DNA of 51,383 nucleotides from an uncultured Clostridia bacterium (GTDB lineage Bacteria > Bacillota > Clostridia > Christensenellales > Aristaeellaceae), in NCBI GenBank assembly GCA_946527725.1, contig CAMMYM010000002.1, positions 1 to 51,383 of the forward strand. The letters run 5' to 3'. The number at the start of each line of letters is the position of its first letter. The stretch's first letter is position 1. A program made the position numbers and the translations under genes. This document shows, piece after piece, positions 38,894-46,547 of the stretch. Below the pieces are notes generated by a model. That model was not told where the DNA came from, did not search any database, and saw only the letters and a list, made by a program, of their open reading frames with translations.

Positions 38894-39445
38894 ATGGATA
38901 AGCAAAAAAAGAATCCCTATGCCGGCACGCAGACAGAAAAGAATCTTGAAGCTGCCTTTGCCGGTGAATCCCAGGCCAGGAATAAGTACACCTATTTCGC
39001 GTCCAGGGCAAAGAAGGATGGTTTTGAACAGATTGCGGCCCTGTTCCTGAAAACAGCCGACAATGAAAAGGAACACGCAAAGATGTGGTTCAAAGAACTG
39101 AACGGCATCGGAGATACTGCGGAAAACCTTGCCGCAGCCGCGGAAGGCGAAAACTTTGAGTGGACGGATATGTACGAAGGTTTTGCCGCCACTGCCGAAC
39201 AGGAAGGCTTCGCTGATCTGGCCGCGAAATTCCGTATGGTAGCAGCGATTGAAAAGCATCATGAAGAGCGCTATCGCGCGCTGCTGAAGAACGTCGAAAT
39301 GCAGGAAGTATTTGCGAAGAGCGAAGTAAAGGTTTGGGAATGCCGTAACTGCGGCCATATTGTCGTAGGTACCAGCGCACCGGAAATCTGCCCCGTTTGC
39401 GCCCATCCGCAAAGCTATTTCGAGGTCAACGCGGAAAACTACTGA
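38894..39445 (+). CDS. rbr: Rubrerythrin
   Basis: A 183-residue rubrerythrin. The N-terminal ferritin-like diiron domain includes [19 protein letters not shown], then [13 protein letters not shown] and IEKHHEERY, with the carboxylate and His ligands present. The C-terminal rubredoxin-like FeS4 site has Cys150, Cys153, Cys166 and Cys169 (WECRNCGH, then EICPVCAHP). It reduces hydrogen peroxide with electrons from rubredoxin or NADH systems in the cytoplasm of anaerobes. Its own promoter, and position beside a nitroreductase and an XRE-desulfoferrodoxin regulator, point to an oxygen-stress neighbourhood. Confidence 0.96.
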
Positions 39446-39501: not shown

Positions 39502-40029
39502 ATGGATTTTCAGGAATTGATCACTGCACGCAGAAGCGTCCGGAAATATGATTCACCCATCGGGCATGAAGCCCTTGAAGCGATCCTGCGCCAGGCACAG
39601 CAGGCTCCTTCCTGGAAAAACCAGCAAACGTCCCGCTGCTATGTTGTTGAATCAGCAGAAAGCCTGGACGAACTCCGCGTTTCCGCCCTGCCGGAATTCA
39701 ACCGGAACAGTTCCGCGCACGCTGCGCTCATCGTGACCACTTTTGTACGGAATATCGTCGGTTTTGCCAATGGCTCCCCTGTCAATGAGATCGGAAACGG
39801 ATGGGGCGCGTATGACCTTGGCCTTCATGACGCTTACCTGATCCTTGCTGCAAAAAACGCAGGTTACGATACGCTGATCATGGGAATCAGGGATGCGGGT
39901 GTCCTCCGCGCAAAACTGGGTATACCTGAAAATGAAGAGATCATGTCAGTCATCGCAGTCGGAAAAGGAAATGAAGCACCCTCTGTGAAGCCCCGAAAGG
40001 GCCTGGATGAAACAGTCCGGTTCCTCTGA
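39502..40029 (+). CDS. Nitroreductase-family flavoprotein
   Basis: A 175-residue protein with the family's start (MDFQELITARRSVRKYDSPI), PSWKNQQTSRCYVV and ENEEIMSVIAVGKGNE for FMN and NAD(P)H binding. A shortened nitroreductase fold of this kind is common in Clostridia. It probably reduces nitro groups or quinones, or acts as a flavin reductase. It follows rubrerythrin by 56 bases with its own ribosome site and ends at a strong terminator. Confidence 0.9.
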   Translation: MDFQELITARRSVRKYDSPIGHEALEAILRQAQQAPSWKNQQTSRCYVVESAESLDELRVSALPEFNRNSSAHAALIVTTFVRNIVGFANGSPVNEIGNGWGAYDLGLHDAYLILAAKNAGYDTLIMGIRDAGVLRAKLGIPENEEIMSVIAVGKGNEAPSVKPRKGLDETVRFL

Positions 40030-40195: not shown

Positions 40196-40523
40196 ATGCC
40201 GCAAACAGTATTGATCACCGGTACCGGCAGACCTTATGCCCTGGGTTTTAATCTGGTCAGGCGCTATTTACCTCGATTACGGCACAGAAAAAGCAGCCCT
40301 GAATATGCTGACCATGACGATGCATAATTATTTCAAAAATGACCCGGACATCAACATCATCTGTCTGCACCCGGGCTGGATGAGAACAAACCCCGGCAAC
40401 CATGAAGCCCCTCTTGATCCGTATGAACACGCGGAAACGCTGCGCTGCCTGTTCGAAACAAAAAGGCATGACAAAGACGGCCCCGTGTTCATCACCCATA
40501 CCGGGGAAGCATATCCCTGGTAA
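40196..40523 (+). pseudogene. Short-chain dehydrogenase with internal deletion and frameshift
   Basis: The ATG at 40196 gives the N-terminal SDR strand and glycine loop (MPQTVLITGTGRPYALGFNLVRRYL). That frame then goes off. From about 40266 a second frame carries the C-terminal half of an SDR (LDYGTEKAALNMLTM with the Lys of the active site, NIICLHPGWMRTNPG, TGEAYPW). The central NNAG and catalytic Ser region is missing, so at least 100 codons are lost. It is a dead gene between the terminator and the XRE regulator. Confidence 0.8.
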
Positions 40524-40575: not shown

Positions 40576-41190
40576 TCAACGGTTCGGTTGGTTCAGCATT
40601 TCCCGCTCGATCCTCTGCCTGAACAGGCCATGCTGATTGCAGTAAACATACAGCCAGCCGTTTCCCCGCCAGAAAAAGCGTGCCCCCGTGCTTCCCTCCG
40701 GGTACAGTGCCGCAGTTTCACAGCGGTCTGCGGTCACGTAAGAAACAAAGGATAAATAGTGTTCCTTGCTCATAGGGTGATCGGCAATAACATAAATCTC
40801 ATCCTCCGCCTCCTGTATAACCGCCCTGTGCTGCCGGTCCGGTTCCTCCGCGTCCAGGGCGGGAAGGCGGATCCCGCAGCATGAAATCATCGCGTCCCCC
40901 CTCGCGAAAACAACGTTTCCGCATACCGGGCATGCGTAAAACCTGCTTTTGAGCATATTTGCAGCACGGTTCGTGTTTACAACGGTCTCACCGCAGAGGA
41001 GTTCAGGGACGGAAACATGCAGTGCGGCACCGAGGGGTTCGATCAGGGAAATATCCGGGAATCCGCGGCCGTTCTCCCACTTCGATACAGCCTTATCACT
41101 CACACACAGTTTCGCTGCCAGTTCAGCCTGTGTCATCTGCTGCGTTTCACGCAATACTTTGATGGTTGCCCCGGTAACGTAGCGGTCCAT
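40576..41190 (-). CDS. XRE-type regulator fused to a desulfoferrodoxin (superoxide reductase)-like module
   Basis: A 204-residue protein. Residues 5-65 form an XRE helix-turn-helix (VLRETQQMTQAELAAKLCVSDKAVSKWENGRG). Residues 84-110 are a desulforedoxin-like Cys4 site (Cys87, Cys90, Cys104, Cys105: CPVCG...SCCG). Residues 118-190 carry all five likely superoxide-reductase site ligands: His121 (DRQH), His138 and His144 (DHPMSKEHY), Cys184 and His187 (CNQHG). The Glu-Lys pair before the first His in true superoxide reductases is Arg-Gln here. The ATG at 41190 has GGGAG 9 bases before it. An iron/redox-sensing regulator is my inference. Confidence 0.82.
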   Translation of the reverse strand: MDRYVTGATIKVLRETQQMTQAELAAKLCVSDKAVSKWENGRGFPDISLIEPLGAALHVSVPELLCGETVVNTNRAANMLKSRFYACPVCGNVVFARGDAMISCCGIRLPALDAEEPDRQHRAVIQEAEDEIYVIADHPMSKEHYLSFVSYVTADRCETAALYPEGSTGARFFWRGNGWLYVYCNQHGLFRQRIEREMLNQPNR

Positions 41191-41243
41191 CCGTATCAGC
41201 TCCCTTCCGTCATAACATAACAGGCATCCCGGCAGTACGCAAC

Positions 41244-41256
41244 CTACGTTTCGTAG
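41244..41256. promoter_or_regulatory. Palindrome in the divergent intergenic region
   Basis: CTACG-TTT-CGTAG, a perfect 13-bp inverted repeat. It lies 54 bases upstream of the XRE gene start and 94 upstream of the thioesterase start. It is a candidate operator for the regulator. Confidence 0.35.
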
Positions 41257-41349
41257 AATGGCGGCATTTGTTCCTTGCAATCGCGCAGCTGATCATGGAT
41301 AATAACGGGGAAACGCGGTTACCGGCAGCGATGAAAGAAGGCTTGCAGC

Positions 41350-41748
41350 ATGAAGCACAAGGTTCAGTATTACGAAACAGACATGATGGGCGTTACACAC
41401 CACGCAAACTATATCCGATGGATGGAAGAAGCCCGGATAGATTTTATGGATCAGATCGGCTTTCCCTATAAACGGATGGAAGCGGAAGGTATCCTGTCGC
41501 CGGTAAAAAGCCTGCAGGCGAATTACCTGAAGCCTTGCACGTTCGGTGATGAGGTGGAGATTACTGTCCGGATCACAGATTTCAACGGTGTAGTCATCTC
41601 CCTGGCATATGATATGCGTCTGGGCAGTGAACAGGTCTTTACCGGTACATCACAGCATGTTTTCCTTAACCGCGGCGGCAGATTCGTCCGGATGAAACAG
41701 GTTATGCCGGATTTCTGCGAAACAGTCAGCCGTCTCGCCGAAAAATAA
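41350..41748 (+). CDS. Acyl-CoA thioesterase of the hot-dog fold (YbgC/FadM-like)
   Basis: A 132-residue single hot-dog domain. QYYETDMMGVTHHANYIRWMEEARIDFMDQIG is the YbgC-type signature with the catalytic Asp and H-x-N. LKPCTFGDEVEITVRI and FLNRGGRFVRM follow. It hydrolyses acyl-CoA thioesters in the cytoplasm; chain length is unknown. It is divergent from the XRE-desulfoferrodoxin gene and convergent with ogt (stops 15 bases apart). Confidence 0.88.
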   Translation: MKHKVQYYETDMMGVTHHANYIRWMEEARIDFMDQIGFPYKRMEAEGILSPVKSLQANYLKPCTFGDEVEITVRITDFNGVVISLAYDMRLGSEQVFTGTSQHVFLNRGGRFVRMKQVMPDFCETVSRLAEK

Positions 41749-42363: not shown

Positions 42364-43878
42364 TTATTGTTCCGCTGCCTTGAGGTAAAGCGCTTCGAGC
42401 ACTTCCGGTGTAACTGACTGAACACTGTTGTAAACCACTTCCCCGCGCCGGTTCAGTACAACAGTCTGGGGCAAGGTGGCTGTTCCGCCGATCATCTCTT
42501 TCACAGGATCGCCTTCCAGGTCTGTTGCGCATGGAACATCAAGGCCAAGCCCTGCCACGAACGCCTCCGGATCCTCCACAACCAGGGACGGGTGGATCAC
42601 AATCATTGCGATATCGCCCGCATGGGCCCGGTACAGGTCGTTGAAGTACGGGAGTTCCCTGATGCACGGCGCGCACCAGGTTGCCCAGCGGTTGATGACG
42701 GTTACCTTTCCTCGGGTATCTGACAGGCGGAAGGTGGAGCCGTCATAGCATTCCAGCGAAAAATCGCCAGGTACCATGCCTTCCTCATAGCCGGCGGCGG
42801 CATCGCTTTGCCAGTTCTCTTCAGCCTGCATCTGCCCTTCGGAAAGTCCTTCGTTCCGGATCGAAGGATCAAGGAAGTTGAACCAGACCAGGGCAAAACC
42901 CATCACCGCCAGCGCAGCAGCCCACAGGATCCGTTTCCGCTGCCGGTATCTTTTCCTTGTGTTCTCCCCCATAGTGCGAATATCTGCGTCGGGTGCCTTC
43001 AGGGTGATTTTCCCGGCTTTCAGGGAGATTGCACCCTGCGGGCAGTATTTCATGCACTCCCCGCAATGGATGCACTCATGGTCACCCACGTGCCTGACAT
43101 CCATACCGCAGCGGTGTACGCAGGCGCCGCAGCCGTTGCAGCGTGCTGTGTCCACCCTGACCCCGATCATGCTGAAACGGTTGAATAAACTGTAAAGGGC
43201 GCCGAGCGGGCAGATAAACCGGCAAAAACCCCGGTAGCAAAAAACGCATAACAGGCCTGTTGCCGCCAGGATCACCCATTTCCGGGTAAAGAGAAGTCCG
43301 AGCATTCCATACATTGAAGCATTGCCCGGATGCGCAAGATGTCCTGCGGCCCCTTCCAGGGTTCCCGCAGGGCAGATAAACTTGCAGAATCCCGGATACG
43401 GTAAATCCCTGGCCAGTGCATAATACAGGGGAATGGCAATCACGAAAACTGCGAGGATGATATATTTGGCCCATGACAGGGCCCGGGTCATCCTGCCCTT
43501 CCGGATCTTCAGTGTCGGAATACGGTGCAGCAGTTCCTGGATCAGGCCGAACGGGCAAAGCCACCCGCAGACCGTTCTCCCCAGGATAATACCGTATAGC
43601 AGAATGATCCCGAGTATATACCACCCGGCCCTGTGGCCTGCAGACGAAAGTGCGTTCTGGAGCGCGCCAAGCGGGCAGGAGCCGACCGCTCCGGGGCAGG
43701 AATAACAGTTCAGCCCGGGGCTGCAGAAGTACTTTGCGTTACCCTCATAGATCTTTCCGTCAATAAACCCTCTCAGGTATGCATTATGCAGCAGGGCTGC
43801 ATAAAGCTGGACCATGCGCCGTGTCGCCGGACGGCGGTCCTTCCCGGGAATAATCCTCACCGTATCTTTTCTATCCAA
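42364..43878 (-). CDS. NapH-like polyferredoxin membrane protein fused to TlpA-type thioredoxin
   Basis: A 504-residue fusion. The membrane part (about residues 85-225) has three C-x3-CP motifs (Cys104/108, Cys165/169, Cys219/223), typical of NapH/CcoG/RnfB-related proteins. Two 4Fe-4S sites follow (Cys247/250/253/257 and Cys269/272/275/279). A further helix at about 318-334 precedes a thioredoxin domain with WCAPC at 401-405 (FSLECYDGSTFRLSDTRGK, ATLPQTVVLNRRG). Electrons could thus pass from the inside through the Fe-S relay to an outside thiol-disulfide centre. The TTG start lacks a ribosome site and overlaps the preceding gene by 8 bases, suggesting coupled translation. Confidence 0.88.
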   Translation of the reverse strand: MDRKDTVRIIPGKDRRPATRRMVQLYAALLHNAYLRGFIDGKIYEGNAKYFCSPGLNCYSCPGAVGSCPLGALQNALSSAGHRAGWYILGIILLYGIILGRTVCGWLCPFGLIQELLHRIPTLKIRKGRMTRALSWAKYIILAVFVIAIPLYYALARDLPYPGFCKFICPAGTLEGAAGHLAHPGNASMYGMLGLLFTRKWVILAATGLLCVFCYRGFCRFICPLGALYSLFNRFSMIGVRVDTARCNGCGACVHRCGMDVRHVGDHECIHCGECMKYCPQGAISLKAGKITLKAPDADIRTMGENTRKRYRQRKRILWAAALAVMGFALVWFNFLDPSIRNEGLSEGQMQAEENWQSDAAAGYEEGMVPGDFSLECYDGSTFRLSDTRGKVTVINRWATWCAPCIRELPYFNDLYRAHAGDIAMIVIHPSLVVEDPEAFVAGLGLDVPCATDLEGDPVKEMIGGTATLPQTVVLNRRGEVVYNSVQSVTPEVLEALYLKAAEQ

Positions 43879-45817: not shown

Positions 45818-46111
45818 TCAAACCCTGTTTTTCAGGATATCCGCCGCCAGCTCGAGCATATGGAACGCTGCATCCCGAACCGCAGTGATTTCATCATAAA
45901 CAAGGTCTTCCGAAAGGACTCCGGCCGGAATATTCCCGGGAATTTCTCCCTCCCTGTCCTCATACCAGGCTTCACTGCCGTAATAGGAAAAAAGCTTTGT
46001 CATCTTTTCCGCCAGCGCGTCTGTCCGCTGCAGCTGGGCCGTCAGGTCACGCGTTGCCGCGGAACACTCATTCAGGTACCCCTCCATTTCCCTGATACGG
46101 TCAATGTTCAT
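45818..46111 (-). CDS. DUF4298 protein
   Basis: A 97-residue helical protein: RIREMEGYLNECSAATRDLTAQL, then LFSYYGSEAWYEDREG and GVLSEDLVYDEITAVRDAAFHMLELAADIL, the DUF4298 pattern with its conserved Y-Y and GVLSED. Function is unknown. It overlaps the Rrf2 gene end by 11 bases and is 17 bases before mntP, which suggests a metal- or redox-related role. Confidence 0.85.
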   Translation of the reverse strand: MNIDRIREMEGYLNECSAATRDLTAQLQRTDALAEKMTKLFSYYGSEAWYEDREGEIPGNIPAGVLSEDLVYDEITAVRDAAFHMLELAADILKNRV

Positions 46112-46547
46112 GCAGCATCCTCCCCGTCCGGATTCCCTGTTCCCCTTCAGGGCCGATTAACTCTGACAGCTTCCTGCTGAAGAGGAAATCGTGCACCAGC
46201 CTGTCCAGTTCTGACCACAGTCCGATTGTTGCGCAGGCATCATGCCGGGGGCAAGGTTCCGACCCTTCCTGAAGGCAGGCCACCGGAGCCAGTGTTCCTT
46301 CCATCAGCTCGACGATCTCCCCGACAGAATACTCCTCCGGACTGCGCAGCAGCACATAGCCGCCACCTTTGCCGCTGGAGCCCTTTACAAGCTTCCCCTC
46401 TACAAGTGCTTTCATAATGATTTCAAGATACTTCTTTGAGATCCCCTGCCTGTCGGCGATCTCCTTCAGAGGGATGGGACTGCCCGCCTGTTGCTTTGCC
46501 AGGTCAATCATTACCCGCAGTGCATAGCGTCCTTTTGTTGAAATCAT
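46101..46547 (-). CDS. Rrf2-family transcriptional regulator with iron-sulfur cysteines
   Basis: A 148-residue Rrf2 protein. The winged helix is STKGRYALRVMIDLAKQQAG, then ISKKYLEIIMKALVEGKLVKGSSGKGGGYVL, and a long dimerisation helix follows. The three cysteines Cys91, Cys99 and Cys105 (spacing x7, x5) match the [2Fe-2S] or [4Fe-4S] ligands of IscR-like regulators. It leads the operon with DUF4298 and mntP. A palindrome (TTTACC-N4-GGTAAA) overlaps its promoter, suggesting autoregulation. Confidence 0.9.
   Translation of the reverse strand: MISTKGRYALRVMIDLAKQQAGSPIPLKEIADRQGISKKYLEIIMKALVEGKLVKGSSGKGGGYVLLRSPEEYSVGEIVELMEGTLAPVACLQEGSEPCPRHDACATIGLWSELDRLVHDFLFSRKLSELIGPEGEQGIRTGRMLHEH

Follow-up and report, generated by a model that had tools for sequence, protein, structure and literature searches.

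The window (the whole stretch of DNA that was analysed, 51,383 nucleotides) carries on its reverse strand a gene for a 204-residue protein in which a helix-turn-helix (HTH) precedes an iron module of the superoxide reductase (SOR) type. The flanking genes, the domains of the protein and the candidate regulatory elements before it are listed in Table 1. The similarity of the short frame between the nitroreductase and fusion genes to SDR oxidoreductases is confined to their C-terminal third (PRK08177, residues 149–228); the frame represents a fragment or a decayed gene.

Table 1. Genes, protein domains and putative promoter elements around the fusion gene, in window coordinates
Feature	Position	Strand	Remark
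Rubrerythrin gene	38894–39445		Opposite strand to fusion gene, convergent
Nitroreductase gene	39502–40029		Opposite strand to fusion gene, convergent
SDR fragment	40236–40523		95-aa frame, between nitroreductase and fusion gene
HTH-Dx-SOR fusion gene	40576–41190	−	204 aa; ATG at 41190, stop ends at 40576
Dx-SOR module, residues 83–194	40609–40944	−	Contains His121, His138, His144, Cys184 and His187; profile and fold match
Desulforedoxin-type Cys4 site CxxC-x13-CC, residues 87–105	40876–40932	−	Residue alignment and conservation
XRE/HTH_3 DNA-binding domain, residues 7–68	40987–41172	−	
Putative −10 element TATGTT	41214–41219	−	17 nt past the −35 element
Putative −35 element TTGCGT	41237–41242	−	One base after the palindrome; inferred from conserved spacing
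Operator-like palindrome CTACGAAACGTAG	41244–41256	−	Conserved motif spans 41240–41257
Promoter-like TTGCAA-17-GATAAT of the thioesterase gene	41275–41303	+	1 found, shuffle mean 0.5
4HBT-type thioesterase gene	41350–41748	+	Divergent

The first-pass annotation had listed the rubrerythrin and nitroreductase as neighbours of the protein; both do lie near the fusion gene in the window, but the arrangement is not conserved, a rubrerythrin being found near the fusion in 1 and a nitroreductase in 0 of the 105 other anchored loci. The neighbourhood was rejected as a functional clue: the commonest family occurred in 12 of 106 anchored loci, some of which overlap or come from one genome, and no partner was conserved. 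Ten representatives of the recurrent neighbour families, judged by eye, resembled GNAT, PfkB, NUDIX, HAD and kinase types. Homologues of the divergent thioesterase were found near the fusion in three other anchored loci (L046, L049 and L086). Beyond the window, a rubrerythrin of the cluster found there occurs at just one anchored locus, L103, a 5.2-kb Syntrophaceticus contig on which the fusion, a standalone desulfoferrodoxin and the rubrerythrin occur together.

The N-terminal part of the fusion protein matched HTH_3 with 40.4 bits (cut-off 23) over residues 10–64. The C-terminal part was recognisable with PF01880 and PF06397, at scores under the thresholds (18.7 vs. 22.2 and 16.1 vs. 23 bits, respectively), and TIGR00320 (dfx_rbo) covered residues 83–191 with 44 bits against a cut-off of 146.9 (E = 2.3e-11). 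In residue-by-residue alignments with the solved superoxide reductases 2ji2 (E = 9.6e-9) and 1dfx (E = 5.7e-6), nine Cys and His residues of the protein (C87, C90, C104, C105, H121, H138, H144, C184 and H187) coincided with conserved Cys and His residues of these structures, the ligands of those proteins. The predicted fold agreed in a fold search with an SOR plus a P22 c2-type HTH, and the convergence of the five SOR-centre ligands was judged from the residue alignment together with this fold match. The initial description of one 204-residue protein joining an HTH, a Cys4 site and all five SOR-centre ligands held, with all nine residues present, and so did its reading of Arg-Gln in place of Glu-Lys, R119-Q120 being aligned with E47-K48 of superoxide reductases. 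The spacing of the iron module, RQ-H-x16-H-x5-H-x39-C-x2-H, lies outside the motif of catalytic 2Fe-superoxide reductases, given in the excerpted text of PMC11980386 as (E)(K)H-x19-27-H-x5-H-x40-63-C-x2-H.

With its HTH N-terminal to the Dx-SOR module, the window protein is assigned to an architecture that already has a name. It had been surmised that similar fusions might exist as unnamed database entries; in fact, the class HTH-Dx-SOR, with 19 proteins carrying an HTH before the Dx-SOR module, was named in 2011 in SORGOdb (PMC3116461). The likeness lies in the N-terminal HTH placed ahead of a Dx-SOR module; the Cys4 motif quoted there is CxxC-x15-CC, whereas the fusions here have CxxC-x13-CC, with all four Cys present in the window protein. 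The passages of PMC3116461 on this class are silent on its function, operator and regulon, and no further paper on the function, operator or regulation of the class was found in the open-access literature. What is new here is the operator-like site, with the geometry of its promoter, described below. Three regulators were rejected as candidate SOR fusions: OseR of C. difficile, a Spx-family protein according to the part of PMC11481553 that describes it, and TrtA (104 aa) and Xtr (about 47 kDa), which are not SOR fusions by their descriptions in the text excerpts consulted.

The HTH-Dx-SOR fusion is common in Clostridia. A query with the C-terminal domain matched in 31 of 61 related genomes, frames of ~200 aa being fusions and those of ~130 aa standalone proteins. 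Among 391 class genomes, 75 had a match of >100 bits (counted by eye; G126, with a 137-aa frame, excluded), and 72 had fusion-sized frames (at least 195 aa), as judged by frame length; the matches in G197, G222 and G276 lie in frames of <195 aa. A contig scan yielded 80 named loci, the best 80 of 569 confirmed stretches, whose titles indicated Clostridia or other Bacillota; its patterns required either the LYPE..R segment or the first two of the cysteines. Those positions were thereby partly selected; none of the histidines formed part of the patterns. From the 108 frames of the fetched loci, minus one standalone protein and identical copies and plus the window protein, we obtained a set of 105 distinct members, all with the domain and, on uncut contigs, also with the HTH; the fusion is therefore not a chance event.

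The expected conservation of the ligands in homologues was borne out, all nine being intact in 92 of the 105 members, which are ~40–74% identical; fusion and ligand conservation are thus apparent from the sequences themselves. H138, H144 and C184 were kept in every member, H121 in 102 (the other three are not His, one being a gap) and H187 in 97 (Asp in seven and Gln in one), and C105, the fourth Cys of the Cys4 site, was kept in 97 and replaced by His in the remaining eight. Ligands were changed in 13 members. Five of these (L055, L056, L141, L142 and L145) are altered at both iron sites and form one clade (support 100/98): His replaces the last Cys of the Cys4 site, and Asp replaces H187, the last His of the SOR site. 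A coupled retuning of two metal sites would deserve spectroscopic attention. The spacings were nearly constant and differed from those of standalone desulfoferrodoxins: CxxC-x13-CC in 105/105 members vs. x15 in 9/9 standalone proteins, and H-x16-H in 104/105 vs. x19-20, followed by H-x39/40-C. The fusions also share a LYPE...R segment, whose Y and P were invariant in all 105 members. In a tree of 114 domains, one branch (100/100) parted the fusions from the standalone proteins; the tree rests on few alignment columns, has long branches and was rooted at its midpoint.

The altered Glu-Lys pair was only in part a family trait. The Lys48 position was occupied by Lys in 3 of 105 members and by something else in 102 (one gap), with an acidic residue (E or D) in 37, but Glu was kept at the Glu47 position in 46; both residues were invariant in the nine standalone desulfoferrodoxins. 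A title in the reference list of PMC3116461 refers to a superoxide reductase that naturally lacks the Glu, and that a natural SOR can do without the Lys is implied by the PDB title 'I. hospitalis T24K'. Because such natural enzymes exist, the loss of Glu-Lys alone is no proof of a sensor.

A site with the consensus TCTACGNNNCGTAGGTTG is conserved upstream of the fusion genes, its core being the 13-bp palindrome CTACGnnnCGTAG, followed by GTTG. Of the rows, 93 had a Met start and sufficient sequence before it; in the 150 nt upstream of these, the strict 17-mer occurred in 32 and a looser form in 58 regions (shuffle means, 0.0 and 0.26, respectively). A PWM refined on these same regions reached at least 14.6 bits in 91 of the 93. 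As for the two exceptions, the site of L103 lies just beyond 150 nt upstream, and that of L141 lies before a flavoprotein gene, with the fusion gene directly downstream of it. In a held-out test, a PWM built from 15 close relatives scored above every one of the 1560 Markov controls in 71 of the 78 members that are more distant, but in only 2 of 1383 other genes. A site of at least 14 was present at 96 of 100 fusion genes vs. 1 of 1381 other genes of the same loci, on which this PWM had been trained; the single other gene is the L141 flavoprotein.

The position of the site relative to the promoter was equally constant. TANNNT started 19–21 nt after the motif in 91/91 upstream regions, at 20 nt in 85 of them, and the same range was found at 113/113 unique fusion sites, a few of which came from searches whose pattern already contained the −10. 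This fixed spacing implies that the TTG is the first half of a −35 element, with a spacer of 17 nt in most cases, and would place the operator centre near −43 of the putative start. The conservation and specificity of the site and its fixed promoter geometry can be read directly from the upstream sequences. As upstream gaps of <50 nt were found in only 4 of 97 fusion loci with an upstream neighbour, the fusion gene usually seems to own its promoter, and the presence of the conserved site at this promoter makes it most likely that the fusion protein autoregulates through it. The link between the protein and the operator is one of association, the site having been found upstream of its gene. On the other side of the intergenic region, the promoter-like sequence of the thioesterase gene could share the operator with the fusion gene.

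Sites away from the fusion genes were few. In 45 genus genomes, 23 of 27 exact operator sites were at fusions (counted by eye). Across the 391 class genomes, the operator plus promoter pattern gave 12 sites and its reversed form 2. Of the 12, ten lay at fusions (L250 being cut by a contig end), one at a flavoprotein-fusion pair and one at another XRE. Bare sites with 0 mismatches occurred in 10 of the 391 genomes, seven at fusion genes and one at the flavoprotein-fusion pair; once the promoter part is dropped, the pattern no longer outperforms its reversed control across the class (10 hits, counted by eye), and lone bare sites away from a fusion gene are therefore not trusted. Among 23 non-fusion sites (those of L104, L088, L096 and L242 were counted as fusion sites), nine had a −10 at 19–21 nt and 14 did not. 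The genes behind the nine encode a CAT-family acetyltransferase (L170), flavoproteins (L171, L141/L180 and L278), a 114-aa protein without a Pfam match (L213), an AAT/CBAH-type hydrolase (L214) and XREs in which no SOR domain is detectable (L231, L239 and L248, one of them methyltransferase-like by eye); the pattern that retrieved L248 already included the −10, and L141 is part of the fusion pair. The three XREs hint at a wider XRE subgroup that may swap sensor domains; the operator may mark this subgroup, and it is then uninformative on the sensor. Genes behind sites without a −10, e.g., the L154 lipid kinase, L158 and the L230 GNAT, are weak candidate targets.

The flavoprotein matches FMN_red and Flavodoxin_2 and has a compact Cys motif, mostly CX2CX2CX6-7C, of a kind found in iron-sulfur flavoproteins. 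Five of its 29 loci (in 28 genomes) showed a link to the fusion, three through the operator and three through adjacency, one of them through both, and the other 24 had neither; these searches covered the two groups in which the link first appeared. The separate SOR genes of G001, G002, G023 and G035 had no operator site with up to one mismatch, a search that weaker sites could escape, and no rubrerythrin was among the genes read behind operator sites, which together argue against a master regulator of oxidative stress. These results support a tiny regulon with few other targets.

We therefore favour, at a probability of roughly 0.6, a one-component HTH-Dx-SOR regulator with an operator at its own promoter, an iron-state or iron-occupancy input and very few targets. 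The DNA-binding head would read the palindrome directly upstream of the −35 element of its own promoter, and the sensor would be the superoxide-reductase module, with its iron ligands kept and its catalytic lysine lost. A change in how the iron is oxidised or ligated (through superoxide, O2, peroxide, NO or cellular redox), or in how far the module is loaded with iron, would most likely alter DNA binding, and the regulator would thereby tune its own level and a very small target set, sometimes including an FMN reductase of the iron-sulfur-flavoprotein type. What we infer from these patterns is that the protein binds the operator and iron, together with the nature of its signal and whether it activates or represses. 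As for the sign, a rigid phase between operator and promoter is expected of an activator that touches RNA polymerase. Because the phase is rigid here and repeated at some unrelated genes, we lean slightly towards auto-activation, a repressor covering the −35 element being nearly as likely; as to the first-pass term 'repressor', an operator fixed beside the −35 element suits an activator at least as well. More tentatively, and less likely than not, the protein may be a direct sensor of superoxide (or O2 or NO) that evolved from a superoxide-reducing enzyme by losing the lysine that steers superoxide and gaining an HTH and an auto-activating circuit, its operator placed as in lambda PRM at ~−43. 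If true, this would be a widespread clostridial class of ROS-sensing regulators distinct from SoxR, OxyR, PerR and Spx, in one branch of which linked exchanges of ligands at the two iron sites would have shifted the tuning.

That the module reports the availability of iron (or zinc) and not oxidants seems rather unlikely, though this reading and that of a bifunctional enzyme, discussed below, are both live alternatives. Both sites are metal sites by sequence, their ligands are conserved independently of the catalytic Lys, and even the doubly altered clade keeps metal-type ligands after its Cys-to-His and His-to-Asp changes; the targets likewise have no oxidative-stress theme. However, no iron-uptake or storage gene was among the genes read behind the operator sites, and the only non-regulator extra target seen more than once is the flavin reductase with its iron-sulfur-flavoprotein-like Cys motif.

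The SOR and SOD content of related genomes bears on whether the fusion acts as an enzyme. Twelve genus genomes were chosen, ten of which carry the fusion. Seven of these ten (G001, G002, G023, G035, G451, G453 and G012) also have a separate SOR (PF01880, 72–77 bits, 114–128-aa frame), so that in most of them the fusion is not needed as the sole SOR; the PF01880 profile finds short SORs that the fusion-based C-terminal query missed in the same genomes. No separate SOR was found by PF01880 in G455, G008 has, besides its fusions, a single 27-bit match in a 152-aa frame, and the window's own assembly (G000), which is only 57% complete, has no other PF01880 match. Fe/Mn-SOD was found in 0 of the 12 genomes, with 12 of 14 control genomes positive. 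The separate SORs and this result favour a regulator over an enzyme. A bifunctional protein, in which a working superoxide reductase has an HTH merely to control its own expression, is quite unlikely: the Lys position is non-Lys in 102 and acidic in 37 of the 105 members, the spacings of 13/16/39 depart from the 15/19-27/40-63 published in the excerpted text of PMC11980386, and ordinary SORs are encoded separately in 7 of 10 carriers, against which stand the Fe(His)4Cys ligand set, intact in most members, the 0/12 count for Fe/Mn-SOD, the three carriers without a clear separate SOR and the two titles (the Glu-less enzyme and I. hospitalis T24K), which indicate that a missing Glu or a missing Lys, taken singly, does not necessarily mean an inactive enzyme. 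The earlier proposal of a sensor and not an enzyme is supported in part: a regulator fits the non-Lys residue in 102/105 members, the shifted loop spacings and the operator-like site at the gene's own promoter, but the Glu-Lys argument is weaker than was stated.

It is very improbable that the iron module is a structural relic in a constitutive or partner-controlled XRE autoregulator: the site shared with XREs that have no detectable SOR domain, the very small regulon and the ligand changes in 13 members would fit, but nine ligands kept in 92/105 members at ~40–74% identity and ligand spacings nearly constant in 105 members would not.

Compared with the 2Fe-superoxide reductases or desulfoferrodoxins of D. 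baarsii (2JI1) and D. desulfuricans (1DFX), the fusion adds an HTH, replaces Glu47-Lys48, and has shorter loops and the LYPE...R segment. XRE/Cro-CI repressors such as P22 c2, 434 and SinR carry an oligomerisation or peptidase domain where the fusion has a metal-site domain. PerR, SoxR and OseR, which have other folds, would do a comparable job if the sensor reading is right; that reading is plausible and is strengthened by the operator-like site. Site and promoter geometry together make the function of the fusion protein directly testable, turning an annotated curiosity into a testable circuit, and raise the question of whether a detoxification enzyme has been turned into a redox switch in anaerobes.

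Three further observations concern the window and its genome. A NapH-like 4Fe-4S part and a ResA-like thiol-disulfide oxidoreductase share one frame (42364–43878). An Rrf2-family regulator related to IscR/CymR (46101–46547; 117.6 bits to TIGR00738) lies ~5 kb from the fusion gene. Elsewhere in the genome, a 215-aa XRE frame (L002; G000 C90:1556-1792) is 37% identical to the fusion over its residues 12–90.
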